Source: an uncultured Bacilli bacterium (lineage in GTDB: Bacteria > Bacillota_I > Bacilli_A > ML615J-28 > CAG-698). From it: a stretch of DNA of 32,827 nucleotides. Position 1 is the first letter of the stretch; every line of letters starts with the position of its first letter. A program made the translations under genes and the position numbers. The stretch is taken from positions 1-32,827 of the forward strand of contig CANQVC010000017.1 in assembly GCA_947627195.1 (NCBI GenBank), read 5' to 3'. Positions 3,155 through 32,827 of this stretch are shown here, one piece after another. Below the pieces are notes generated by a model. The model was not told the origin of the DNA and did not search any database. It saw only the letters and a list, made by a program, of their open reading frames with translations.

Positions 3155-5509
3155 TTAATTATTTTTATTATAATTTTCTTTTTTTATTATATCTAATAAA
3201 TCATTAAAATTAATCCAATAATTTGAATCACTATCAAAATCATGATATTCAATTCCCATATATAAGTAAAATTGTGTCCCCTTTTTTACAACAATCCCAC
3301 CTCTTACTTTTGGTAAATTTCCGCGATTAACATTTATATTTGTTAAATAATTCTTCAATGCGTTTGCTTTGATTGTTGTATCATCTACTCTATATCCAAT
3401 TGGTTTAGTGTCAAATATACCCACACTTCCATCTTTAAATTTAACAATAAAATCTGGTTGAAATGTATTCATTCCATTGTTATATTCAATTCCAAAATTA
3501 ATCCTCATAAGTTCAGCACCATTTTCCCAATACCATTCAACTTCTTCTTGTTTATCTAAATAATGCAAAAAATCTTTTTCTAACTTATTATCTACTAAAT
3601 TATTCTTATTTTTTAAAACATACAATGGTTGGTATAATGATTTTAAACATGGCAATTCCACATGTGTATCAATTGAATAAGGTCTTACTTCTTCAATTTT
3701 AAAATCATAATTATCCCCTTTTTTATATGCTTCTTTTGAAATCATTTCTCTAAATTTTCTTGTTGAATTGGATATTATTTCTGAAAAAATATCTTTATTA
3801 TTAACAACAATTTTCATAATTGATGAAATTCTTTCATTTCTTGGAAAAACATTATAAAATAAATTAAATGCGTCGATAATCGCTGATGTAATAGGAGATT
3901 TAGATCTTACATAAGCTAATCCATTTAAATTTTCTTTAATTATTAAATTATATTGCATAACAACATCATTGTCTGACATTAGCACAGCTGCTTGATTACC
4001 ATATATTAATTTTTCAATATTTGCAGCTTCAATTCCTATATTAGTTTCAGCCAATATTTCATCTTTAATTTTAATTTCTAAATTTAAGCCTCTTTGTTCT
4101 AATTTTAATTGATTATATATTGCATAATTATTTTTATCATCTTCAGTTAAGTTAAAATAATTCATGAATTCATTTATATAAAACTTACTAAATCTAGAAT
4201 CAGCAGAATTATAATCACCTTGTCTTGATCGATAAAAAGATATTAAATGTGTCTGTTCCCATACATAAGTTTTATTGTATTCTTCTTTCATTTTGGAGAA
4301 TTCAGTTTTAATTCTATTAGGATTATAAGTATCTGCTTTGGTCTCAAAACTCCAAATATTAGTAAATATATAAGCATTATCTAATAAATAATTTTCATAA
4401 GATTTAGCTTCTGCCGTTCTTAATATTCTTCCAATAGTTTGAGTTTCGAATGTTTCAGATTTACCTTCTCTAAATTTAACTAATATATGTGCCCTAGGGC
4501 AATCCCAACCTGTAGCAACGGCTGTTTTAAAAACTAAGAATTCTGTTATATCATTATTATTTTTGATATTTTTTTTATCAAAATTATTTTTATCATCACA
4601 CCAAAATTTTAGTTTTCCATTATCTTCATTAATACCTCTATCAAATAAAAAATCTTTAATAACTTTTTTCTTGGCTTCACCTTCATCAACATTAGGTATT
4701 TGAATCAAAACTAATGGATTAATGTTAATATTTAGATTTTTATATTCATTTAGTATTTCTAATCGTTTTTTATATCCTTTTTCTAAAATAAGTATTTCAC
4801 TATCTTTTTCTTGAAGGTTTTTATCATTATTTGTAATTCCTTCATTCACAATAACATCACATTTAATCATTCCTTCATCTATAACTTTTTGTGAATCTAT
4901 TTCAACATCAATATGATTATTAAGTGGTGTAGCCGACATTTCTAATACGATATTAGGATTAATAATAGTATTTATAAATTCTTTTATTCTAGTTTTTTGT
5001 GATGCACCAATGTGTGATTCATCAACAACTAAAATAATTTTTATTCCATCTTTTTTTGTTTCATCAATAACATCAATGAAATTCATTCCTTCTTGATCTT
5101 TCATTAAGTTATTTGCCCATTTACCTGTTTCTTTATCTTTTTGTATTAATTTTTCCCAATTAATAAAAACAATTTCTTTATCTTTAATATACTTTCTTGA
5201 TCCAAAGAAATTATCCTCCAATAATGAGCAAACAGGATTTCCACCTAAATATGTTTTGACAGCATCATAAGATTGCTTATGTAATTCACCTTTTCCTGGA
5301 CACACCCATAAAATGCAAAATTTTTGATTGTTATTTTCACATGCTAACTCTTCAAATAAAGATGCAGCCATGAATGTTTTTCCAGACCCTGTTGGTGCTT
5401 TAAAAACAATTTCTTTCTTTGATTTTAATTGTAATGAAAGTTGGATATAATCTTTTAATTCGTCAACTGCTTCTCTTTGATAATTTTTAAGTAAATATAT
5501 CATTTTCAT
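3155..5509 (-). CDS. res: Type III restriction endonuclease subunit Res
   Basis: A 784-residue superfamily 2 helicase with a C-terminal nuclease. Helicase motifs in order: Walker A APTGSGKT (38-45), DESH box ILVVDESHIGAS (about 158-171), SATPL, and the V/VI region TGWDCPRAHI...QTIGRILRT (about 332-365). Near residues 683-700, PDFIVKFKDGSVGIFDTK gives the PD-(D/E)XK catalytic residues (PD...D.K). Res works with Mod to translocate and cut DNA when sites are unmethylated. Its ATG overlaps the mod stop codon as ATGA, the usual coupling in these operons. It is somewhat shorter than the commonest Res proteins (900 or more residues) but all catalytic parts are present. No frameshift or long homopolymer was noticed. 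Confidence 0.93.
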   Translation of the reverse strand: MKMIYLLKNYQREAVDELKDYIQLSLQLKSKKEIVFKAPTGSGKTFMAASLFEELACENNNQKFCILWVCPGKGELHKQSYDAVKTYLGGNPVCSLLEDNFFGSRKYIKDKEIVFINWEKLIQKDKETGKWANNLMKDQEGMNFIDVIDETKKDGIKIILVVDESHIGASQKTRIKEFINTIINPNIVLEMSATPLNNHIDVEIDSQKVIDEGMIKCDVIVNEGITNNDKNLQEKDSEILILEKGYKKRLEILNEYKNLNININPLVLIQIPNVDEGEAKKKVIKDFLFDRGINEDNGKLKFWCDDKNNFDKKNIKNNNDITEFLVFKTAVATGWDCPRAHILVKFREGKSETFETQTIGRILRTAEAKSYENYLLDNAYIFTNIWSFETKADTYNPNRIKTEFSKMKEEYNKTYVWEQTHLISFYRSRQGDYNSADSRFSKFYINEFMNYFNLTEDDKNNYAIYNQLKLEQRGLNLEIKIKDEILAETNIGIEAANIEKLIYGNQAAVLMSDNDVVMQYNLIIKENLNGLAYVRSKSPITSAIIDAFNLFYNVFPRNERISSIMKIVVNNKDIFSEIISNSTRKFREMISKEAYKKGDNYDFKIEEVRPYSIDTHVELPCLKSLYQPLYVLKNKNNLVDNKLEKDFLHYLDKQEEVEWYWENGAELMRINFGIEYNNGMNTFQPDFIVKFKDGSVGIFDTKPIGYRVDDTTIKANALKNYLTNINVNRGNLPKVRGGIVVKKGTQFYLYMGIEYHDFDSDSNYWINFNDLLDIIKKENYNKNN

Positions 5510-7221
5510 TCACCTCTTTTAATCCCTTCAACAATTTCTTTGTAAATTTCATATATTTTTGAAGGAATTGGTTTTACTATTATTGGCTCATCTTTAAATA
5601 AGTTTTCATCAATATTATTATCAATTGAATAAACATAAACTATTTTATCACCTTTGGTACTTATTACTCTATCTTTAAATTCATTAAATTTTTTTTCGTT
5701 GTAAACATCATTATAAATAAATAAATGTCTATTACCATCGTTAAAATGTGAGGAATAATCATTTCTTTCAACTTCGTTAAAAATATTTTCTGCAATGCAC
5801 AAAAGCGCATCAACTTTTTCAACTAAAATATATTGGGCTTGTAAACTATTTGGATTATCAGCAATGAAACTAGTTTTAAAATAATAAAGATTTGACGGAA
5901 TACCATCACTATATTTACTTCCATCAGGACGTATTCCAGTAATAACTGTTTTTAATCTTGGATAAGTAACATCAGTACAAATGTTATTTTCGTTATTGGT
6001 ACATAAAATAAACCTTCTATGTCCACCATCTTCTTTATTCAGTTCTAGTACTGCTTGTCCTGTTGTTCCTGAACCAGCAAAAAAATCCAAAACTGAAGAA
6101 TTATTATTAGGATGCAAACTTAAAATTCGTTTTATTAATCCAACAGGTTTTGGATAATCGAAATTTACATTTTTGCTTGTTGTTTGTTTCAAAGTTTCTG
6201 TGCCTAATTCTGTATTAACGTTTTGATAATCCCATATGGTAGGGGCAAGTTGAGTACTTTTATTTTCAATATATTTTCGCTCATAAACATTATACATACC
6301 TTTATTATTTTTTCTAACGTATAGACTAGATTTTTCCCTTAGAAATTTTTCTTTCCCCCAACGCCATCTACCATCAGATCCATCAGAAAGAAATGGTAAA
6401 ATTTCTATATCGTCTATAGCACTTCTATCTAAATTTAGTTCATTAAATTGTGGATTAAAATAGATTGGATACCATAAATTCGGAACATCAACTTTTCTGG
6501 CTGCAGCCCCTCTTTTTCTAAGTTCCCATTCTTCATATGCATTTCCTTCATTATCAACATTTTTGAATTTTCTCTTTATAGTTTCTTCATCAATTCTAAA
6601 TCCATTTATAACGCAATTTCTAGTTTTTCTATAAACAATCAAATAATCATGAACTTGTGCAAAATATGAGCTTGATTGTCGACCTCTAGGATTAGCTCTG
6701 ACCATGATATTTGCTAAAAAATTTTTTTCTCCAAATATAGAATCCATTAACAATTTTATATTGGCCTGTTCATTGTCATCAATACTAATAAAAATAATAG
6801 CATCATTTTTCATTAAATCTTTAGCCAATAAAAGTCTTTTGTTCATCATGTTTAGCCATTTAGAATGTCTATATCCATCATCTAAATCTACAAATCTATC
6901 ATTATAACTAAAATCTTTATTTCCAGTATTGTAAGGTGGATCAATATAAATAATATCAATTGATTCTTTTGCTATTGTATTCAATGACATTAATGAATGA
7001 TAATTATCGCCTTCAATTAAAATATTATTATCTGTGCCCAAAACAATTTTTTTACTTTCATCTTGTTCTAAGATAGGAATATTCTTTTCACAGTCTAATA
7101 CCACTTTTTCCTTAGTATTTTCTTTATCCCACACTAATCCATATTTTTTTAATGATTTTAGTTCTGTTTCTAATTCATTAATTCTTTTTATTAAATCTTC
7201 AACTTTATACTCATTTAACAT
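5506..7221 (-). CDS. mod: Type III DNA methyltransferase subunit Mod (adenine-N6/cytosine-N4 beta class)
   Basis: 571 residues. A short coiled coil comes first (about 8-26). The catalytic motif IV, YIDPPYNTG, is at about 92-100 and precedes the SAM-binding motif I, VLDFFAGSGTTG, at about 375-386; that order defines the beta class. The specificity region lies between them. Mod methylates the recognition sequence and is required by Res for recognition and cutting. The ATG is preceded by an AGGAG site and is the first gene of the mod-res operon. Type III mod genes are often phase variable through simple repeats; none of notable length is present here. Confidence 0.93.
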   Translation of the reverse strand: MLNEYKVEDLIKRINELETELKSLKKYGLVWDKENTKEKVVLDCEKNIPILEQDESKKIVLGTDNNILIEGDNYHSLMSLNTIAKESIDIIYIDPPYNTGNKDFSYNDRFVDLDDGYRHSKWLNMMNKRLLLAKDLMKNDAIIFISIDDNEQANIKLLMDSIFGEKNFLANIMVRANPRGRQSSSYFAQVHDYLIVYRKTRNCVINGFRIDEETIKRKFKNVDNEGNAYEEWELRKRGAAARKVDVPNLWYPIYFNPQFNELNLDRSAIDDIEILPFLSDGSDGRWRWGKEKFLREKSSLYVRKNNKGMYNVYERKYIENKSTQLAPTIWDYQNVNTELGTETLKQTTSKNVNFDYPKPVGLIKRILSLHPNNNSSVLDFFAGSGTTGQAVLELNKEDGGHRRFILCTNNENNICTDVTYPRLKTVITGIRPDGSKYSDGIPSNLYYFKTSFIADNPNSLQAQYILVEKVDALLCIAENIFNEVERNDYSSHFNDGNRHLFIYNDVYNEKKFNEFKDRVISTKGDKIVYVYSIDNNIDENLFKDEPIIVKPIPSKIYEIYKEIVEGIKRGE

Positions 7222-7379
7222 TTTAACATACTCCTAATAAGTTGTTAAAGGTACAGATTAATAAACTCTATTTAATTCAGTTATAATTTGATAAAAAAAC
7301 TTTAATAGCTACAAAAAAAGAGATTTAATTTGTATTTATTATCAATTTATGTTAAAATATTTATATAAAAACTAGTTGC

Positions 7380-7395
7380 TAAAGGTGTACCTTTA
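7380..7395. promoter_or_regulatory. Perfect 16-bp palindrome upstream of the resolvase, candidate recombinase or repressor site
   Basis: TAAAGGTGTACCTTTA is a perfect palindrome 75 nt upstream of the resolvase start codon. A half-site-like sequence, GTTAAAGGTAC, recurs at 7244-7254 just upstream of mod. The two could be parts of a res/crossover site or a shared operator in the divergent mod/resolvase intergenic region. This is inference from symmetry and position. Confidence 0.4.
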
Positions 7396-7409
7396 CAAAC
7401 CATTTTCTA

Positions 7410-7436
7410 AAATCATCCATTTTTGGATGATTTTTT
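7410..7436 (+). terminator. Hairpin with T-run in the resolvase leader (terminator or attenuator)
   Basis: The stem AATCATCC/GGATGATT (8-9 bp, 6-nt loop) is followed by TTTT. No plus-strand gene lies upstream, so it either ends a short leader transcript or attenuates the resolvase. A TATAAT at 7439-7444 just beyond it could start a separate short transcript for the resolvase. Confidence 0.55.
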
Positions 7437-7469
7437 GTTATAATAAACATATTTATGGAGGACTAATAT

Positions 7470-8060
7470 ATGAACTATGGATATGTAAGAGTTTCATCTG
7501 CAACACAAAATATTACTAGACAAATGGAAGAAATGTATAAATTAGGATTAAATGATGATTTTATATATATTGACAAACAAAGTGGAAAAGACTTTAATAG
7601 AGAAAATTATCAATTATTAAAAAGTAAATTAAAAAAAGGCGACCTATTAATTATAAAATCAATAGATCGCCTTGGTAGAAATTATGATATGATTATAAAT
7701 GAATGGAGTGAAATAACAAAAATAATTGAATCAAATATTTTTGTTATTGATTTTCCTTTATTAGATACTAGAGTAGAAAATAAAAATCTTGTTGGTAAAT
7801 TCATTAGTGATATTGTATTACAAGTATTAAGTTTTGTTGCTCAAAATGAAAGAGAAAACATTAAAATTAGACAAGCTGAAGGAATTAGAATTGCGAAAGC
7901 TAATGGTGTTCACATGGGAAGACCTAAATATAAATTACCAAATAACTTTGAAGAAATTGTACATAAATTCCACAATAAAGAAATAACAAATATTAATGCA
8001 GCTAAATTATTAAATATGACTAGGGGTACATTTTTAAAATATGCGAAAATGTATAAATAA
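7470..8060 (+). CDS. Small serine resolvase/invertase (Hin/Tn3 resolvase type)
   Basis: 196 residues, the usual size. The catalytic domain opens with YGYVRVSSATQ, with the nucleophile Ser at residue 9 or 10. IKSIDRLGRNYD carries the conserved Arg pair near 67-70, followed by the long E helix with NERENIKIRQAEGI. GVHMGRPK marks the linker to a C-terminal helix-turn-helix (INAAKLLNMTRGTFLKY). A GGAGGA site stands 7 nt before the ATG. It would catalyse site-specific inversion or resolution through a phosphoserine DNA link. It is the only plus-strand gene in the left 31 kb and meets the AAA+ gene tail to tail with no gap. The decayed fragment at 620-739 is from a relative. Its target site is unknown. 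Confidence 0.92.
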   Translation: MNYGYVRVSSATQNITRQMEEMYKLGLNDDFIYIDKQSGKDFNRENYQLLKSKLKKGDLLIIKSIDRLGRNYDMIINEWSEITKIIESNIFVIDFPLLDTRVENKNLVGKFISDIVLQVLSFVAQNERENIKIRQAEGIRIAKANGVHMGRPKYKLPNNFEEIVHKFHNKEITNINAAKLLNMTRGTFLKYAKMYK

Positions 8061-16835: not shown

Positions 16836-18455
16836 TCATATTATTTCTTCTTCTATTTCATATCCTCCCTTTAATACAATTACTATACTATTTTTCATTA
16901 CTTTAATATATGAAACTATTCTTCTAATCATATCATCATTATAAGTAAGCAAATAATGATTATCATCCATTAAAAATTCCTTAATTTTTTCTATTTCAAT
17001 ATTAATTTCTTTTTTTTCTTTTGACTTTTCTCTCTCAATTTCTAATTCATCTCTCAATGAAACGATTTGTAATGTTAAATTTTTAATTTCTTCATCATAT
17101 CTTTTTTTATCGCCTTTAGTGTTTATTCTCATAGAAATAGTATCATCTCTTAATTTGTTTAGTTCATTAATTTGATTTTCTATTGCATATACATTTAAAA
17201 AACAATCATCTTTAGATATTTCATAAGATAAATTATTTGTTATCATACTTACAATTTCTTCTTTTTCGTCTATAACTTTATTTATACTTCTAATAATAAT
17301 TTGTTTTAATTCTTCATCTTCAATACTAATTGAATGTTTACATATTTTTGCACCATATTTAATTCTGTTTAGACAACGCCATACTATTTTCTTTTTATTA
17401 TTTCTTGTCCAACTTTTTCTTCTATAGCAACTACCACATTCACCACAAACTAATAAATCTGTTAATGCATATTTTCCACTATACTTGCTTTTTTTAGTTA
17501 ATCCATTCATTATTGTTTTCTTTTTTGTACATCTTTTAGCTATTTCAAGTTGTACTGCTTTAAATATACTTTTATCAATAATTGGCTTATGACTATTTTT
17601 TATTAAATATTTTGCCATTTCTCCATGATTAATTTTTTTCTTTTTTGAAATACAATTTTCCGTATATGTTTTTTGTAAAAGCATCTCTCCACAATATCTT
17701 TCATTTGTTAATATTCGTAATATTACAGATTTACTCCATATTTCTTTTCCTCTTGTTGTGGAATAATGATTTGATTCTAAATATTCTTTTATTTGATCTA
17801 CACTTTTACCATCTAAATACATTTGATATATTTTTCTAATTATTTCTGCTTCTTTTTCAACTATTTCTGGTTCGCCATTTGCACCTTTTTTATAACCTAA
17901 AATATTATATCTAAAAGCATATGTCCCTGCTTTCATTCTTTGTTGAATTCCCCATCTAACATTAGCACTTATATTTTCACTTTCTGCTTGAGCTAAAACA
18001 CTATAAAACCCTATAAACATTTCACTATCTATATTAAGCGTATTTATATTTTGTTCTTCAAAGAAAATGCCTATTCCTTTAGCTTTTAATTTTCTAACAT
18101 ATTTTAAACTATCAACCGTATTTCTAGCAAATCTTGCAACTGATTTTGTTAAAATTAAATCGATTTTACCCTTTTCACAATCTTTAATCATTTTTAAAAA
18201 ATTAACTCTACTTTTTGCTTGAGTACCACTAATACCTTCATCTGCATAAATATTAACAAATTGCCAACTGGGATTTTTATAAATCAAGTCTGTATAGTAC
18301 TTAACTTGGGCTTTATAAGATTCTATTTGATCCTCTGTATCAGTTGATACTCTACAATAAGCTGCTACCCGTAAAATTTTATAACTATTTTTTTCAATTG
18401 ATAACATTGGATTGGCTTCTATTTTAGTTACTATCTTTCTTGATTCTATCTCCAT
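16836..18455 (-). CDS. Large serine recombinase (third gene of the triplet)
   Basis: 539 residues, complete. The resolvase domain starts VAAYCRVSTD with the nucleophile at Ser37. YADEGISGT and ILTKSVARFARN carry the conserved Arg residues, and AEEE-like AQAESENISANVRWG follows. The Recombinase domain (about 180-290) holds NILGYKKGANGEPEI and SVDQIKEYLES. The zinc ribbon is CGECG...WRCLNR...KIC, followed by a coiled coil with a hydrophobic C-terminus. Such enzymes integrate and excise elements between attP and attB. It starts 1 nt after the TGA of the gene before it, so it is translationally coupled, and it ends at the terminator 16695-16733. Confidence 0.93.
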   Translation of the reverse strand: MEIESRKIVTKIEANPMLSIEKNSYKILRVAAYCRVSTDTEDQIESYKAQVKYYTDLIYKNPSWQFVNIYADEGISGTQAKSRVNFLKMIKDCEKGKIDLILTKSVARFARNTVDSLKYVRKLKAKGIGIFFEEQNINTLNIDSEMFIGFYSVLAQAESENISANVRWGIQQRMKAGTYAFRYNILGYKKGANGEPEIVEKEAEIIRKIYQMYLDGKSVDQIKEYLESNHYSTTRGKEIWSKSVILRILTNERYCGEMLLQKTYTENCISKKKKINHGEMAKYLIKNSHKPIIDKSIFKAVQLEIAKRCTKKKTIMNGLTKKSKYSGKYALTDLLVCGECGSCYRRKSWTRNNKKKIVWRCLNRIKYGAKICKHSISIEDEELKQIIIRSINKVIDEKEEIVSMITNNLSYEISKDDCFLNVYAIENQINELNKLRDDTISMRINTKGDKKRYDEEIKNLTLQIVSLRDELEIEREKSKEKKEINIEIEKIKEFLMDDNHYLLTYNDDMIRRIVSYIKVMKNSIVIVLKGGYEIEEEII

Positions 18456-18456
18456 T

Positions 18457-19314
18457 TCAATATTCTCCTATCATTATTTCTATTTTTATATCATTTAAAA
18501 AAATAATTTCTACCACACCTGTTTTATTAATTTTAATTTTTTTAATTACCTTTCTAATATATTCATTATTAATATCTTGAATGTTTTTTATCTTTTTTAT
18601 ATTTTCAATGATATATTTTGTTTCACCATTTAAATATGTTTTATAGCTTCGGAATCTTTTACTAGCCATTTCCATAATTATTTTTTTAGTTGTATTAAAA
18701 TTTTCTATTTCGTTTTCCAACAACTTTTTAATATCATTTTTGTATTTCATTTCAGCTAGTAATATTTCTTTATTTTTATCTATATCGTTTTTTTCATTAA
18801 TTTCATTTCTATTTAAAAATTCAATAGATGCAAAATAAATTGATTTAATAAGGTCATCTAAATATATATTTTTTTCACATTTACATCTGTTTTTACACTT
18901 TAATTCTCTTTTCCCATATGAAGTTTTTACTAGATTATATGTTCCACCACAGAAGCTACAATTAATTATTCGCTTTATATTTTTTTCTAAACTACTACAA
19001 ACGATGTTTTTACAACCTTTACTTATTTTTAACTGATTTGCATTAGTAAAATCATCAATATTTATAATCTTAGGATAGTTATTTAAACCAATATATTTTT
19101 TTTCTTCAATAATTCGATTGATTTTGTTCTTATTCCACGTTGCTTGATTTTGGCTAAACGATATATGTCTTTCATTTAATTTATTTGATATTTCTTTTAA
19201 AGACTGTCCGTTTATATAATTTTTAAATATTTCTTTTACAACTTCAGCTTCCTGTGAATGAATTGTAATTGTGCCATTTTGAATATAATATCCATATATT
19301 ATATTTCTATACAT
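18457..19314 (-). CDS. Serine-recombinase homologue lacking the catalytic domain (middle of triplet)
   Basis: About 285 residues. The protein begins directly in the Recombinase DNA-binding domain (NIIYGYYIQNGTITIHSQ, EVVKEIFKNYINGQSLKEIS). It then has a zinc ribbon (CSFCGG...CKNRCKC) and a coiled-coil tail like its neighbours. There is no YCRVS catalytic block, and the preceding DNA belongs to the end of the upstream gene, so the resolvase domain is absent and not merely frameshifted. I chose ATG at 19314 (GGTGA site); TTG 19329 or GTG 19326 would add five or four residues and overlap the previous gene. It may be an accessory DNA-binding subunit, for example a directionality partner. That is inference. 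Confidence 0.8.
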   Translation of the reverse strand: MYRNIIYGYYIQNGTITIHSQEAEVVKEIFKNYINGQSLKEISNKLNERHISFSQNQATWNKNKINRIIEEKKYIGLNNYPKIINIDDFTNANQLKISKGCKNIVCSSLEKNIKRIINCSFCGGTYNLVKTSYGKRELKCKNRCKCEKNIYLDDLIKSIYFASIEFLNRNEINEKNDIDKNKEILLAEMKYKNDIKKLLENEIENFNTTKKIIMEMASKRFRSYKTYLNGETKYIIENIKKIKNIQDINNEYIRKVIKKIKINKTGVVEIIFLNDIKIEIMIGEY

Positions 19315-19318
19315 TCTA

Positions 19319-20860
19319 CTATTCACCAACTTCCATATTTAAATTTAAATCTCCTATTAAACGAAATGTTAATGTTCTGTCGGTTTCAACAAATATTTTA
19401 TCAACCATTCTGTTGAATAACTCTAAATTGAATTCAATCATATAATTTTCTTCTTCAACTATTTTTTTTAATTCTTTTAGCTGTTCTACAATTAATTCAT
19501 CTTTATCTTCTCTAATTAATTTTTTTCTTCCGCTTTTTAAAAAATCTAAACTTTTGCTTGCTTTATTCATTTTTTCAACATAAGATACTTCATCAATTAA
19601 TGAAAGATTGTATAATTCATTATAGGATTCAATCATTTCACTAAGCGAAAAAATCTCTTCATCAATTTCACTTATCTCTTTGTTTGTTTCATTTTCTTTA
19701 TTTTTCAAAATCATAAGAAATGAGATAGTATCATCTATAATAAATTTTTTGATATCTTTTAACTTATTAAACATTTGAATAAAACATTTTTTAATAGAAA
19801 AAGTTGAAAATGGGATAGCATTGCAATCTGTAATAAAATTTCTTTTTTTAGAACACACCCAATATACATCATCTTTTCTTTCGATAGAGCGATAACGTTG
19901 ATGACAATTTCTACATTCAATTTTATTTGTAAAACAAAAATATTTTTTTTCCGTACCATGAAAAAATTTTTCTCTTTTTGCCTTTCTTATTTGCTGAGCT
20001 AAATTATAAATTTCTTTTTCGATAATAGGTTCATGATTATTTTCATAATAATACATAGGAAGTTCGCCTTTATTTAATCTTTTTTTTAATGGTAAACTAT
20101 TAGGAGTATATGTTTTTTGATTAAGAGAATCACCTATATATTTTTCGTTATTTAAAATATATCTAATTTGTTCAATTCGAAAATCTAATTGATTTTCTTT
20201 TTTTAAAATACTTGCAATTTTATATGTCCCCATTCCATTTATATATAATTCAAATATTTTTTTAACAATTTTTGCTTCTTCTTCATTAATTACTAATTCG
20301 TTCTTGTCTAAACGATATCCATATGGTGCATTTTTTAATTTATAAGTTCCATCAGCCATTTTCATTCTAATTGAAGTTGCCATTCTTCTAGATGCTCCCA
20401 ACACTTCATCTTGAGCAAATGCACTTTTAATGTATAGAATCATCTCTGAATTCATATTTTTTGTATCAATATTATCATTTTCAAAAAATACACTAACACC
20501 ACAAGAGGATAAAGTTCTAATAGTTTCTATACATTCCAATGAATTTCTAGCAAAACGTGTAACACTTTTTACAAGTATTCGATCAATCTTTTTATTCATA
20601 CAATCTTTTATTAATCTTTTAAAATCTTCTCTTTTTTCTATTGAAGCTCCACTAATTCCTTCATCTGCATAAATATCAACTAAAATCATTTCTTGACTAT
20701 GATTTTTAATATATTCATTATAATAATTAATTTGCGCAAAAAAAGAGTTTGCTTGATCATTTGAATCTGTACTTACTCTACAATATGGAGCAACTCTTAT
20801 TTTTTTATTTTCATCTTCCATTGATGAAATTACGATTACTTCTTTTTTTGTATTATTCAT
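19319..20860 (-). CDS. Large serine recombinase (first gene of the triplet)
   Basis: 513 residues. The catalytic block APYCRVSTDSNDQ has the nucleophile at Ser30. YADEGISGAS and ILVKSVTRFARN follow. The usual Glu-rich helix here reads AQDEVLGASRRMATS, more divergent than in the 539-residue enzyme. Recombinase domain: APYGYRLDKNELVINEEE. Zinc ribbon: CRNCHQRYR...WVCSKK. A long charged coiled coil follows. Triplets of serine recombinases are known from some Firmicutes ICEs, from memory including streptococcal ones. It is transcribed after the SHOCT-like gene, 11 nt away, and its 3' end overlaps or touches the start of the catalytic-domain-less gene. Confidence 0.92.
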   Translation of the reverse strand: MNNTKKEVIVISSMEDENKKIRVAPYCRVSTDSNDQANSFFAQINYYNEYIKNHSQEMILVDIYADEGISGASIEKREDFKRLIKDCMNKKIDRILVKSVTRFARNSLECIETIRTLSSCGVSVFFENDNIDTKNMNSEMILYIKSAFAQDEVLGASRRMATSIRMKMADGTYKLKNAPYGYRLDKNELVINEEEAKIVKKIFELYINGMGTYKIASILKKENQLDFRIEQIRYILNNEKYIGDSLNQKTYTPNSLPLKKRLNKGELPMYYYENNHEPIIEKEIYNLAQQIRKAKREKFFHGTEKKYFCFTNKIECRNCHQRYRSIERKDDVYWVCSKKRNFITDCNAIPFSTFSIKKCFIQMFNKLKDIKKFIIDDTISFLMILKNKENETNKEISEIDEEIFSLSEMIESYNELYNLSLIDEVSYVEKMNKASKSLDFLKSGRKKLIREDKDELIVEQLKELKKIVEEENYMIEFNLELFNRMVDKIFVETDRTLTFRLIGDLNLNMEVGE

Positions 20861-20871
20861 ATTTTCCTCTT

Positions 20872-21033
20872 TTACTCAATATTAATTACTCTACAGCCTA
20901 GGCTATTAGCATTCCTAATGTTTAATTTTTTTGCTATTTCCTGTGTAATTAATTTTTCATTGCATAATTGTTTTATTATTGATACACTTAAAAAATAAAT
21001 AATTTCATTTCTAATATTTTTGTCTACGCTTAT
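20872..21033 (-). CDS. Small SHOCT-like protein with apparent ATA start
   Basis: 53 codons not called as a standard frame. The sequence NEIIYFLSVSIIKQLCNEKLITQEIAKKLN resembles the small SHOCT-like proteins (...LL..GLIT.EE...) that often precede recombinase genes in Firmicutes elements. A perfect AAAGGAGG site stands exactly 7 nt before an in-frame ATA codon at 21031-21033; no ATG, GTG or TTG is available in frame near it. Either ATA is used as a rare start or the start has mutated. The stop lies 11 nt before the first recombinase gene, so coupling is likely. The family assignment is by eye and not certain. Confidence 0.55.
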   Translation of the reverse strand: MSVDKNIRNEIIYFLSVSIIKQLCNEKLITQEIAKKLNIRNANSLGCRVINIE

Positions 21034-21055
21034 ATATTTTCCTCCTTTTTTAAGT

Positions 21056-21139
21056 GATAGATAAAGCGTAGAATAATAGCATAGCTATCTTAACGCTTCC
21101 ATCTATCGATGTATTCATTATTGATAACTATGCTTTTTT
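21056..21139 (-). promoter_or_regulatory. Structured leader with two interleaved inverted repeats before the recombinase genes
   Basis: Inverted repeat B pairs 21056-21069 (GATAGAT.AAGCGT) with 21093-21107 (ACGCTT..ATCTATC). Inverted repeat A pairs 21078-21089 (AGCATAGCTATC) with 21123-21134 (GATAACTATGCT, one mismatch), followed on the plus strand by TTTTT. One arm of A lies in the loop of B, so the two folds exclude each other or form a pseudoknot. The structure sits just upstream of the AGGAGG site of the SHOCT-like gene. It could be a cis-regulatory RNA or a recombinase binding region. The rest of 20861-21167 holds only the small gene. Confidence 0.5.
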
Positions 21140-21167
21140 CACTAGTTATTAATTTTATTTTAACATA

Positions 21168-21392
21168 TTATTTTTTGTTTGTTTCATAAATTTCTTTTAA
21201 TCTTTGATATCCTGTATATATTAAGTCTACCTTTTTAAGATTATATTTTTTTAAGAATTCGTTAATTTCATTTGCGTCTTCTTTAGGAAGAGTAGTATTA
21301 AATTGTAATTTACTATTTTTGATCTCTTCCTTATGTTTTTCATTATATTTTCTCCAAGCTCTTTGTTGTGCTGTTTCTTCTTGTCTTTTCAT
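21168..21392 (-). CDS. Small ribbon-helix-helix-like regulator
   Basis: 74 residues. A basic N-terminal stretch (QQRAWRKYNEKHKEE) is followed by a strand-like LQFNTTLP and two helices, EDANEINEFLKKYNLKK and VDLIYTGYQRLKEIY. This is the arrangement of Arc/CopG ribbon-helix-helix DNA-binding proteins. It has a clear paralogue at 31647-31874. A GGAG site precedes the ATG. As part of the TnpV-led operon it is a candidate to bind the palindrome in that operon's promoter (22133-22152); this is inference. Confidence 0.65.
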   Translation of the reverse strand: MKRQEETAQQRAWRKYNEKHKEEIKNSKLQFNTTLPKEDANEINEFLKKYNLKKVDLIYTGYQRLKEIYETNKK

Positions 21393-21401
21393 TTTTTACT
21401 C

Positions 21402-21518
21402 CTATCTATCTATTATACTAATCATAAGTGTTACAATACTTAAAATACAATAAAATATTATTGAAAATATCATTAAGTTTATCTTTCCTAAAAAACCCAT
21501 AATTTTGACTGTTTTCAT
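21402..21518 (-). CDS. Small single-span membrane protein
   Basis: 38 residues: a short basic start (MKTVKIMGFLGKIN), then one hydrophobic stretch, LMIFSIIFYCILSIVTLMIS, ending IIDR. The GAGGAG site 7 nt before the ATG is excellent, and the frame fits tightly between its neighbours (4 nt after the stop of the 63-residue gene's frame, 9 nt before the next start). The function is unknown; a small membrane regulator or toxin-like peptide are both possible. Confidence 0.6.
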   Translation of the reverse strand: MKTVKIMGFLGKINLMIFSIIFYCILSIVTLMISIIDR

Positions 21519-21522
21519 TTTG

Positions 21523-21714
21523 TTACTCCTCATTAATTTTAATTTCATTTTTTAAATTATTGATTATAGTTTTTATCTCTTTATCTATAAGCTCTATAAC
21601 TCGAAAATATAAATTTATTTCACTTGGTGAAGTAAATTCATTTTCCATTCGTTCTCTTATTAAACATAATTCTTCTAAATCATCTATTCCATCAATTATT
21701 TTTACTATTTTCAT
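21523..21714 (-). CDS. Small acidic helical protein, unknown
   Basis: 63 residues, almost wholly helical and charged (DDLEELCLIRERMENEF, ELIDKEIKTIINNLKNE), with no recognised motif. It has an AAGGTAAGG-type ribosome site and lies 24 nt after TnpV and 4 nt before the small membrane protein, so it belongs to the same operon. It could be an accessory recombination or regulatory protein; the sequence gives no more. Confidence 0.6.
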   Translation of the reverse strand: MKIVKIIDGIDDLEELCLIRERMENEFTSPSEINLYFRVIELIDKEIKTIINNLKNEIKINEE

Positions 21715-21738
21715 GTTTATGACCTTACCTTTAATTTT

Positions 21739-22098
21739 TTAATCTGAATATACTAATTCATTTAAAATTCTATTTTCAATAATCATTTTTACTTCATTTT
21801 CTCTCAATAAATCTGTAACATAATTCCCTGTCTTTCGATATTCTTTTTTAGTTGATAGATTGTTATACATCGTTGAATACATTTTATCAGCCTCAAAATC
21901 AATATTATGAAGATATTCAATTAATGAATTACCAAGCGCTATATATTTACCATAATTGTGATTTTCTAGATATTCTTTTGCAAGAATTCCATATTTACCA
22001 AATACTTCTTTTTTGATTTTACTTCCTTTTTGATAGCCAATTATTTCCTCCTTACTAAACAGTGTTTTTTCTTTTTTTAATTCTTTAGAATTTTGCAT
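21739..22098 (-). CDS. tnpV: TnpV family transposon protein
   Basis: 119 residues matching the TnpV layout known from clostridial transposons. A basic start is followed by KYGILAKEYLENHNYGKYIALGNSLIEYL, HNIDFEADKMYSTM and the typical end ENRILNELVYSD (compare ...NSIRNRAEEIILNELIYS). TnpV is found next to serine-recombinase modules, where its role is unproven. The gene has a GGAGGA site and a consensus promoter with palindromic operator directly upstream, so it heads the operon that leads to the recombinases. Confidence 0.75.
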   Translation of the reverse strand: MQNSKELKKEKTLFSKEEIIGYQKGSKIKKEVFGKYGILAKEYLENHNYGKYIALGNSLIEYLHNIDFEADKMYSTMYNNLSTKKEYRKTGNYVTDLLRENEVKMIIENRILNELVYSD

Positions 22099-30578: not shown

Positions 30579-31292
30579 TTATTTAGTTGCTAAATTTTGC
30601 AATTCCATTAATTCTGGCATTGCAATTTTTGATATGTATTCAGCTAGATCTTCTATTTTTTGGGCAATGGTTAAATCGTATTTATCTATTAATTCATATA
30701 AAATTATTATTTTATCTTCAAAACGTGTTTCAATTAATTTTTCACGATCTTTCTTTTCAAGCATTGTTGATAAAAATTCAATTCTTTTATTAACATCATC
30801 TATAATTTCATCCCATTTTTTATCAAGTTCTTTTAACTTATTAATATCATACTCCTCATTAATCACGTTATCTTCATCTAATTTATTAATTTCATCGATT
30901 ATTTTATCGTATGTACTTACTCCATCCTTATTTATAATATCAAAGACATAATTTTCTTTTTCGAATAATCTTGCTTCTCTTTTAGACGTGTTTTTTTTAT
31001 CTTCACTAAAATAAAAATGTTTTAATTCATAACTAGGAGTAAAAACTGCCCAAATTGGTTCATATCCTCTTACTGAAACTATTGCATTTCCTTTCTCATT
31101 GCCATTTAGTCTTTCAAGCATACCCATTGTAATAAGCGGTTGATTACTTGCCCCTGTATTACTTGATGCCGATGTTGTAATACTTGTATTAACTGAAAAG
31201 TTCTTAATTTTTTTGTTACCACATAATTCACTAAATTCTTTTCGTGTTTCATTATCATCACTACCAATGAATATTTTTACATTCCTATTCGC
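30579..31292 (-). pseudogene. virD4: C-terminal fragment of a VirD4/TraG coupling protein
   Basis: About 237 residues remain. NVKIFIGSDDNETRKEFSELCG, then LITMGMLERLNGNEKGNAIVSVRGYEPIWAVF, is the C-terminal end of TraG/VirD4 coupling ATPases, which bring the DNA-relaxase complex to the secretion channel. A charged helical tail follows. The Walker motifs and N-terminal membrane anchor are missing. The open frame could start at an ATG at 31322, but that codon lies inside a terminator hairpin of the neighbouring foreign operon and the first ~10 residues are not coupling-protein-like. The break at about 31290-31297 coincides with a jump in G+C. It is either an insertion/deletion junction or an assembly join. 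Confidence 0.75.
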
Positions 31293-31304
31293 TCCGTAGG
31301 GATA

Positions 31305-31337
31305 GAAAAACGACGCAATCATTTCTGACTGCGCCGT
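31305..31337 (-). terminator. Strong terminator of the small-gene operon at the junction
   Basis: A 12-bp stem (ACGGCGCAGTCA/TGATTGCGTCGT, two G-U) with a GAAA loop is followed by TTTTT on the minus strand. Its G+C content is unlike the DNA to its left. It ends the transcript of the genes at 31388-31874. Confidence 0.8.
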
Positions 31338-31387
31338 TCTGCGTTTTTCTTATTATATCAGTTAAAAACAGTTATCTCATTGAAAAT

Positions 31388-31627
31388 TCAATCGTCATCA
31401 TTAGGCAAGTGCCATCCGTGTTCACGATGAATGCTCGGTGCTTGCGGTTCTTCGTTTTCCCAAGCCCTTTTACTCATTTCTCTGTCAAATCTGCCCAACG
31501 TTGTATGACATTCTTCTCGATAATCATCATCAAAATTCGGATTGCAAAAATCCTGACGAACCTTTTCTCGTTCAGCACTTAATTCCTCATCAGTCGCATT
31601 GCTAATCCACTTATCTTTATACTTCAT
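31388..31627 (-). CDS. Small conserved protein of clostridial type, unknown function
   Basis: 79 residues, hydrophilic: KWISNATDEELSAEREKVRQDF, then TTLGRFDREMSKRAWENEEP and an end HREHGWHLPNDDD. Proteins of this look are common in Clostridia mobile regions, but I know no function. It has a GGAGGAAAT site, lies 19 nt after the ribbon-helix-helix-like gene and shares its promoter and terminator. Its codon use is clearly richer in G+C than that of the conjugation genes. Confidence 0.7.
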   Translation of the reverse strand: MKYKDKWISNATDEELSAEREKVRQDFCNPNFDDDYREECHTTLGRFDREMSKRAWENEEPQAPSIHREHGWHLPNDDD

Positions 31628-31646
31628 TTATTTCCTCCATAGAACT

Positions 31647-31874
31647 TTACTTGGATTCGTTATCGGATTTGTGCTTTAAGGCTTCATATCCATCTCGGAT
31701 AAAATCAACCTTTGTCATCCCATTTTCTTTAAGAAAAGCGTTTATTTCGTCAAAAAGTTCTCTCGGTATCATCGTTTGAAAATTCCCGCACTTCGCCTTA
31801 CGCTTTTCCTTATTCTTTTCCTCATACTTACGATTCGCACGACGTTGCGGTGTATCTTCTTTTCTTGTTACCAT
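31647..31874 (-). CDS. Ribbon-helix-helix-like regulator, paralogue of the gene at 21168-21392
   Basis: 75 residues. It aligns along its length with the 74-residue protein inside the element: RKEDTPQRRANRKYEEKNKEK against RQEETAQQRAWRKYNEKHKEE, then IPRELFDEINAFLKENGMTKVDFIRDGYEALK against LPKEDANEINEFLKKYNLKKVDLIYTGYQRLK. The strand-helix-helix order fits Arc/CopG repressors. It has an AGGAGG site and is first in its operon, behind a promoter that overlaps an hsdS inversion repeat. Confidence 0.68.
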   Translation of the reverse strand: MVTRKEDTPQRRANRKYEEKNKEKRKAKCGNFQTMIPRELFDEINAFLKENGMTKVDFIRDGYEALKHKSDNESK

Positions 31875-31921
31875 AATCGCCTCCTACAAGCGAAATATTA
31901 CATAGAGCAAATTCTCTATTG

Positions 31922-31950
31922 ATTATACCATAAATGATAATTTAGCGCAA
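31922..31950 (-). promoter_or_regulatory. Promoter of the small-gene operon, overlapping the left hsdS inverted repeat
   Basis: On the minus strand TTGCGC (31945-31950) and TATAAT (31922-31927) are 17 nt apart. The 18-bp inverted repeat 31930-31947 fills the spacer and half of the -35. Inversion of the hsdS cassette would change the -35 to ATTCGC, so the promoter may be stronger in the present orientation. Confidence 0.6.
31930..31947 (+). repeat. Left inverted repeat of the hsdS cassette
   Basis: ATAAATGATAATTTAGCG encodes the HsdS linker INDNLA in the plus-strand frame. An exact inverted copy lies at 32664-32681. Confidence 0.85.
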
Positions 31951-32661
31951 ATGCTTCGGTTGCTTTACGAGCAATGGTTTTATCGGTTTGAGTTCCCAAA
32001 TGAGCAAAATTTACCGTATAATCGAGCAAACGGAGAATTGGAATGGAACGATAAACTGAAAAGACGTATTCCCAAAGGATGGAAAGTTCAGACAATGCTT
32101 TCTAACGAGTTGTTTTCAGTTATTTCAAGTGGTATAGACCGCTTTTCGACTAAAAAATATTATGCTACGGCAGATATTATCGGTACTTCGATTGGCGAGG
32201 GAAGCGATATTGAATATGAAACAAGAGAAAGCCGCGCTAATATGCAACCTGTCATCAATTCGATTTGGTTTGCAAAAATGAAAAACAGCATTAAGCATTT
32301 GTTCCTAAACAAAGAGATGAGTTCTTTTGTCGATAACTCTATTCTTTCGACAGGCTTCTATGGGTTAAAGTGCAACGAAATCTCTTTTGAATATATCGCT
32401 TCCGTTGTTTCTGCACCTATATTTGAAATCACAAAAGATAGATTATCTCACGGAGCAACACAACAAGGAATTGGCGATGATGATATGGCAAATATAACTC
32501 TTTTAATTCCCGATGACACAATTCTTCGTAAGTATCACGAAGCAACAAAAGGTTTTTTTGCTAAGATATCAAACAATATTTTGGAAAATAAGCGGCTAAT
32601 TGCTATCAGAAACTTTTTACTTCCGCTTCTAATGAACGGTCAAGCAGCCATTGCCGAGTAA
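31951..32661 (+). CDS. hsdS: Type I restriction specificity subunit HsdS, C-terminal half (second recognition domain)
   Basis: 236 residues from the first ATG; the frame is open further left through the inverted repeat (INDNLAQ). LLYEQWFYRFEFPNEQNLPY...LKRRIPKGWKVQTM is the phrase that opens the second target-recognition domain of HsdS. The domain then runs to GATQQGIGDDDMANITLLIP and ends in a conserved coiled coil (LRKYHEATKGFFAKISNNILENKRLIAIRNFLLPLLMNGQ). The first half is missing. There is no ribosome site or promoter for it in this orientation, so it is probably a silent cassette. Inversion between the flanking repeats would join it in frame to the minus-strand linker at 32640-32777. 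Confidence 0.85.
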   Translation: MLRLLYEQWFYRFEFPNEQNLPYNRANGELEWNDKLKRRIPKGWKVQTMLSNELFSVISSGIDRFSTKKYYATADIIGTSIGEGSDIEYETRESRANMQPVINSIWFAKMKNSIKHLFLNKEMSSFVDNSILSTGFYGLKCNEISFEYIASVVSAPIFEITKDRLSHGATQQGIGDDDMANITLLIPDDTILRKYHEATKGFFAKISNNILENKRLIAIRNFLLPLLMNGQAAIAE

Positions 32662-32777
32662 TTCGCTAAATTATCATTTATACAATTGTTGCGTTCAATT
32701 TTTTTCGTCAACAGCGATAAAATCTTTACAATCTTCTTTTGCTCCAAAATATGTGGAATTGAGCTGGCTATGTAAAT
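32640..32777 (-). pseudogene. hsdS: HsdS central-linker fragment joined to the right inverted repeat
   Basis: The minus-strand frame reads IASSIPHILEQKKIVKILSLLTKKIERNNCINDNLA, the end of a first recognition domain plus the central coiled coil of HsdS. After the repeat it runs into a short out-of-context tail (NYSAMAA) and stops. The frame is closed upstream by TGA at 32778-32780, so the first recognition domain is not in frame in what can be seen; a frameshift or a decayed donor copy would explain that. The other minus-strand frames beyond 32695 are open to the window edge but I do not recognise them. Confidence 0.6.
32664..32681 (-). repeat. Right inverted repeat of the hsdS cassette
   Basis: This is the exact inverted copy of 31930-31947. 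It also encodes INDNLA, in the minus-strand frame. The 716 bp between the two repeats form the predicted invertible segment. Confidence 0.85.
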
Positions 32778-32827
32778 TCAATAATTCTTGCCTCATCTCG
32801 CTTCTCAATGTAGCATCCAAATTTGAA

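Follow-up and report, generated by a model that had tools for sequence, protein, structure and literature searches.

A candidate invertible hsdS cassette at the end of a Bacilli contig, and the recombination-like site family of its inverted repeat

We find that the right-hand end of the window (the whole of contig C17, 32,827 bp, from a 1.84-Mb assembly in 78 contigs) carries two convergent pieces of a type I specificity gene, hsdS, each abutting one copy of an exact 18-bp inverted repeat. We propose that recombinase-driven inversion at the two copies toggles the product between a full and a half HsdS, a reading that we hold to be very likely from comparison with related loci. The first-pass annotation had suggested a phase-variable type I system with an invertible hsdS cassette, and the relatives support this, as they carry the same site, the same cassette size and the same convergent layout beside hsdM and a tyrosine recombinase. 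The kind of system is already known from pneumococcus and mycoplasmas; the site family is the part that we did not find described. The locus adds a metagenome-assembled genome (MAG) to the phase-variable restriction systems and gives database searches a signature to work with: one recombinase clade, and a site of 14-15 bp where the HsdS linker encodes INxxL.

The cassette, the linker and the repeat pair

The HsdS C-terminal cassette (31930..32661, plus strand) comprises the second target recognition domain (TRD2) and the distal conserved stretch, with 243 aa from repeat to stop (INDNLAQMLRLLYEQWF...AE*) and a first ATG at 31951. Residues 1-241 align to positions 175-397 of the 403-position PADLOC type I specificity profile with an E-value of 1.5e-36; the cassette protein finds no match in Pfam or NCBIfam at E 0.001, none by sequence among solved structures and none in viral contigs. 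Its relatives in 15 plasmid records and one phage record are all less than 60% identical, and with 60 relatives searched it has matches in four genomes, the window's own included. On the minus strand, 32664..32759 encodes the central linker at the end of the N-terminal half of HsdS, which reads IYIASSIPHILEQKKIVKILSLLTKKIERNNC-INDNLA into the cassette and shares 61% identity across 36 residues with the linker of an HsdS half from a Roseburia MAG (L017, below). These two matches bear out the annotated convergence of a second recognition domain with a linker. In the present orientation the linker frame ends INDNL-ANYSAMAA, with a stop at 32640-32642, while in-silico inversion of 31930-32681 gives ...KIERNNC-INDNLA-QMLRLLYEQWF... 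in a single frame through the stop at the cassette end; the in-frame fusion that had been predicted is thus borne out by the reading frames.

The left repeat (31930..31947, plus; ATAAATGATAATTTAGCG) supplies the INDNLA codons at the 5' end of the cassette, and the right repeat (32664..32681, minus) is the same recombination-like site, here as the INDNLA codons at the 3' end of the linker. The arms agree at 18 of 18 positions and the match ends there on both sides, so that the repeat was annotated correctly to the base. The pair is the longest exact inverted pair within the whole window and bounds a cassette span of 752 bases (31930-32681); a single other copy, with two mismatches, is present in the assembly. 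None of 300 dinucleotide shuffles of 31290-32827 contains an inverted repeat of at least 18 nt; of 60 shuffles of the whole window with arms at most 1500 bp apart, 2 do, and the length of the repeat is by itself only moderately improbable in AT-rich DNA. We take the pair to be real because both copies are INDNLA codons at the HsdS linker and because the site recurs in related loci.

Related loci, the site family and a recombinase clade

The Roseburia locus L017 (JAAUZB010000058.1) encodes HsdR, HsdM and a 184-aa HsdS half with the ending INDNLAA*, behind which a cassette 55% identical to that of the window lies in the opposite orientation; a search of its genome for the recombinase clade described below returned distant matches only. 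Its contig starts 3 bases inside the second site (L017:1), and another locus, L106 (G353 contig C1:1-17), likewise begins at a site. Such contig starts may stem from a mixture of orientations in the sample, because so short a repeat should not alone break an assembly.

With at most one mismatch allowed, the site pattern occurs in 106 of the 392 genomes of the phylum that were searched. We fetched 14 stretches, picked mostly for closely spaced site copies, and 10 of them proved to be hsd loci in which the HsdS linker carries the site (L103-L109, L113, L115 and L116); L110, L111, L112 and L114 were discarded as chance site matches outside hsd loci. Nine of the ten encode a tyrosine recombinase of 324-337 aa that is 59-65% identical to that of L108, the tenth, L116, running off its contig first. 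In several relatives the distal site copy lies behind the cassette stop, outside an HsdS frame, and keeps the 15-mer (e.g., L103:9263, L108:8804 and L113:7441). The site-pattern scan of viral contigs lists 39 stretches.

A clade of tyrosine recombinases of about 330 aa sits in type I hsd loci, and we also chose loci by the recombinase profile alone (E 1e-60), which hits 29 times, in 27 of the 392 genomes. Inspection of every one of the 29 stretches shows an inverted pair of the site in each of the 16 best matches (at least 542 bits) and in none of the 13 weaker ones. The profile had been built with nine of these 16; of the remaining seven, five were also listed by the site pattern, and those in G203 and G311 were not listed at these places. 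The same profile finds 35 loci in the viral-contig collection. An identical inverted TAAA-N6-TTTA pair, 400-900 bp apart, is present in 16 of the 29 GTDB loci and in 16 of the 35 viral loci (L198 and its near-copy L199 both counted), and three scrambled-arm controls each give 0/29 and 0/35. Since the arms are part of the motif and a pair was counted only if identical, arm constancy and sameness within a pair hold by construction, and the informative outcome is how many loci have a pair, that the controls are empty and that the middles vary. In the listed loci, pairs that are inverted but differ in the middle number at most 1 per viral locus and from 0 to 18 per GTDB locus. Ten other hsdS stretches, three of them about 3 kb, contain no TAAA-N6-TTTA pair. 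The window carries an identical inverted pair at 31931/32667, within the 400-900 bp spacing and at INxxL codons.

Between loci we find nine middles, or nine 14-mers, all of which fit TAAAYNNNNATTTA (31 loci, L199 left out); that of the window, TAAATGATAATTTA, recurs in L184 and L190. L184 has hsdR, hsdM, a 185-aa HsdS half, an inverted cassette and the recombinase in a row. In L207, two middles, GATA and GAGA, alternate among the site copies of a single locus. The 14-mer consists of dyad arms around a 4-base centre and doubles as the INxxL codons of the HsdS linker. The centre of a tyrosine-recombinase site must match between partners, and constant arms around a locus-specific middle fit the crossover core of such an enzyme. 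No exact inverted repeat of at least 20 bp lies near the recombinase in 8 of the 16 site-bearing GTDB loci (L106, L115 and L151-L156).

The 32 site-bearing rows of a 69-recombinase tree all fall into one branch (support 91/86, short of the mark set by the tool), whose 39 rows include seven that lack an exact pair; none of the 30 rows elsewhere has a pair. Three recombinases of the window's own genome, on C25, C59 and C8, are placed far from this branch. Two loci with more distant recombinases of the same family, L163 and L210, have other exact inverted repeats of 15-49 bp, which suggests that sister clades may use other sites.

Orientation states and the proposed switch

Orientation was scored in 36 loci, nearly all of them chosen for carrying the site, 7 without and 29 with hsdM. 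The hsdS gene next to hsdM is whole (joined) in 11 of the 29 and half (unjoined) in 12. L199 was dropped as a near-copy of L198; L200, L207 and L211 were set aside as unclear, the next ORF being without the site, and two loci that the script had called OFF were also set aside, L151 with 94 residues behind the site in the ORF and L116 with an ORF that runs off the contig, reads on into the cassette and may be joined. The window has the arrangement of the half state, which agrees with the earlier description of it as unjoined, and both orientations are found among related loci. In 10 of the 12 half-state loci the protein stops two residues past INxxL, with six different residue pairs (AA in five, and AY, FI, FV, CY and TA); the exceptions run on for 8 residues in L187 and 11 in L107, and the window for 8. 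So regular an ending of the half-HsdS suggests that the half protein itself may matter.

In the mechanism that we propose, a tyrosine recombinase encoded outside the contig, probably within the inserted element that carries the cassette (below), in its unassembled middle, would recombine the two ATAAATGATAATTTA sites, the arms of which, TAAAY and ATTTA, flank a short middle, GATA, that would be expected to have to match. One orientation would join the N-terminal half in frame to the second recognition domain and give a full, two-domain HsdS; in the orientation seen here the N-terminal half would read a few antisense codons and stop, leaving a half-HsdS. From the related loci we infer that inversion occurs in the source organism and that the recombinase acting on the window sites belongs to the site-bearing clade. 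The half form would be either inactive or a homodimer with another, palindromic specificity. A broader version is speculative and, in our estimate, improbable: a half-HsdS of one recognition domain and half a linker would pair with itself and turn a bipartite asymmetric specificity palindromic, one inversion of 0.6-0.75 kb would toggle two methylomes, and fixed arms with a locus-specific middle would insulate neighbouring systems from one another. A half-HsdS state would then predict a palindromic methylation motif, readable in long-read methylomes.

Inverting type I systems have been described in pneumococcus (PMC4948785, PMC6620402, PMC7096588 and PMC4190663). SpnIII and Spn556II (cod), with the recombinase PsrA, which is CreX, share with the loci described here hsdR, hsdM, hsdS, a recombinase and a truncated hsdS, as well as short inverted repeats within hsdS that swap the C-terminal recognition domain, and recombination at the pneumococcal 15-bp repeat requires the recombinase, according to PMC4948785, PMC6620402 and PMC7096588. 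The sites differ: PMC6620402 gives a 10-bp core, ATTATGGGAA, with CTCTT ahead of it in the 15-bp and 333-bp repeats, whereas the family of the window is TAAAYNNNNATTTA, and the CreX/PsrA core is absent from the window repeat, which reads ATAAATGATAATTTAGCG. The pneumococcal loci, unlike the window, also have longer repeats, of 85 bp and of 298 or 333 bp depending on the paper. For the truncated pneumococcal alleles S7-S9, the account of the alleles in PMC4948785 records no methylation motif. The hsd2 locus of Mycoplasma hominis and the hsd loci of M. pulmonis have the layout of the relatives here, with hsdR, hsdM, three to four hsdS genes described as forming inverted repeats, and psrA between the S genes (PMC11096450). 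NgoAV of Neisseria gonorrhoeae is alike in switching between a full HsdS and a naturally truncated one of different specificity, which is functional and recognizes the symmetric motif GCAN8TGC, and differs in that a G tract rather than an inversion does the switching (PMC6789123). For a role of the half protein, the truncated NgoAV subunit and the truncated pneumococcal alleles are therefore opposite precedents.

The REBASE survey of inverting type I loci (PMC7394358) counted exact repeats from 20 bp upward and, by its authors' own statement, misses shorter ones; the window locus would escape it, because its repeat is 18 bp. Full-text searches of the open-access literature with spellings of the 14-mer, together with topic searches, did not find the site described, and the only text match was an unrelated microsatellite paper.

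Inserted element, contig end and competing readings

The left 31.3 kb of the window is AT-rich (GC 0.25) and includes conjugation genes, and at about 31290 GC climbs, from roughly 0.26 to 0.40. This point falls within a VirD4-like gene, which is split into a C-terminal part at 30579-31322 (profile positions 365-441) and a complementary N-terminal part that opens contig C16 (C16:190-1350, profile positions 15-353). The stretch 31288..31305 (plus) matches C16:145-162, inverted, at 16 of 18 bases by eye, at the same point of the split gene, and marks the left end of a putative cassette-bearing element. As both cut ends of the gene run into these matching inverted 18-bp ends, the element has most likely inserted in the VirD4 gene, with its first 1.5 kb in C17, its final ~160 bp in C16 and its middle unassembled. 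Window 31280-32827 gives no match to the element among plasmids and phages, and window 32680-32827 gives none among plasmids.

The contig ends 146 bp beyond the right repeat, and the linker frame is open backward only to an in-frame stop at 32778-32780. The final ~75 bp (32752..32826, minus) encode, in another frame than the linker, a fragment SNLDATLRSEMRQELLNLHSQLNST that aligns over 25 residues to the MsmX/UgpC/MalK ATPases of ABC transporters, with best E-values of 0.001 in plasmids, 0.0003 in NCBIfam and 0.012 in the PDB, which are modest because the fragment is short. We considered whether a frameshift separates the linker from the last part of TRD1 at the contig end, and rejected this, as the open frame there matches MsmX/UgpC ATPases. 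The last ~75 bp would be either a chimeric contig end or a real truncation of the HsdS N-terminal half. With the contig ending in this way, TRD1, hsdM, hsdR and the recombinase are not seen, and inversion of the copy as assembled would yield no complete HsdS, owing to the out-of-frame ABC-ATPase-like end and the stop at 32778-32780; the window copy may have decayed, or its end may be chimeric.

The first-pass annotation had advised looking to the right for hsdM, a second hsdS and an invertase gene; the contig holds no hsdM, hsdR, TRD1 or clade recombinase, and a search of the 98%-complete assembly by HsdS and HsdM families, recombinase, 18-bp site and DNA finds no partner that matches the window cassette. 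What the search does return are separate loci on C2 and C8, to which the two strong hsdM matches belong, weak hsdM-family matches on C13 and C4, and five recombinases, all distant relatives of the A2 clade, the weaker two of which (C64 and C41) were left out of the tree. The C8 locus (L023, C8:19300-28050) is a second type I locus and a more classical hsdS shufflon, with hsdS ORFs of 527, 416, 184 and 157 aa in both orientations, exact inverted repeats of up to 73 bp and a tyrosine recombinase of its own. It has in common with the kind of locus proposed for the window a type I system, several hsdS genes that face both ways and a tyrosine recombinase, and differs in having no TAAA-N6-TTTA pair, in its longer repeats and in a recombinase outside the clade.

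Of the alternatives, the one that fares best, to which we give an even chance, is compatible with our proposal and would specify it: the locus would be a multi-gene hsdS shufflon whose swapped alternatives include this cassette, and the N-terminal half would be a silent second one, not the one linked to hsdM. Two site pairs are present in 12 of the 16 site-bearing GTDB loci, in 8 of these ~590 bp and 704-737 bp apart, and the window pair, 737 bp apart by the same measure, has non-hsd DNA outside it, like the outer pair of L113. A single pair is visible in the window, however, and four of the 16 GTDB loci as well as L188 and L190 among the viral loci likewise have one detected pair, some of these stretches being cut.

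It is possible, though we doubt it, that the locus is instead a decayed remnant that no longer flips, in which TRD1, hsdM and the recombinase were lost through a deletion that left the linker fused to an ABC-transporter gene. The ATPase fragment does meet the linker, at about 32750-32760, with the in-frame stop behind it, and the partner genes are absent from an assembly that is nearly complete. On the other hand, the two repeats still match exactly and the 243-aa cassette is open throughout, the anomaly is confined to the last ~75 bp of the contig, and the source of the ABC fragment is also absent from the assembly, the nearest copy being only 48% identical. Chimeric contig ends are, moreover, common.

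An assembly artefact, with a cassette truly joined to the linker and placed backwards, is very improbable. The contig comes from a MAG and breaks soon after the repeat, yet an 18-bp repeat is shorter than the usual assembly k-mers and read lengths, and the unjoined order recurs in 12 other loci, some in contigs of 0.7-0.9 Mb (L113 and L107); even a true artefact would point to the presence of both orders in the sample. Chance, or conservation of the INDNLA codons producing a DNA match with no recombination, is hardly credible and was rejected on the shuffles and the comparative evidence: the repeat does consist of conserved linker codons and 18 nt is reached in some whole-window shuffles, but distal copies outside the HsdS frame keep the 15-mer in several relatives, the other hsdS stretches have no pairs, and both orientations occur among loci.

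Recombinase-driven inversion is the reading that we retain for the cassette, and the element that bears it has two further ORFs between its left end and the cassette, one of 79 aa (31388..31627, minus) for which no family was found and one of 75 aa (31647..31874, minus). The 75-aa protein has no match in plasmids, phages or viral contigs, and relatives in two other genomes of 296 searched; a 48% identical relative is encoded at window 21189-21389. The latter lies among three adjacent ORFs of the serine-recombinase family (539, 290 and 513 aa; window 16836-22098), together with a TnpV-like protein, which may offer a hint, no more, to the type of the element. A further locus in the window, at 3155-8060, resembles a type III restriction system, with an N6_N4 DNA methylase (571 aa) adjoining a ResIII helicase (784 aa) and a 196-aa resolvase alongside on the opposite strand.
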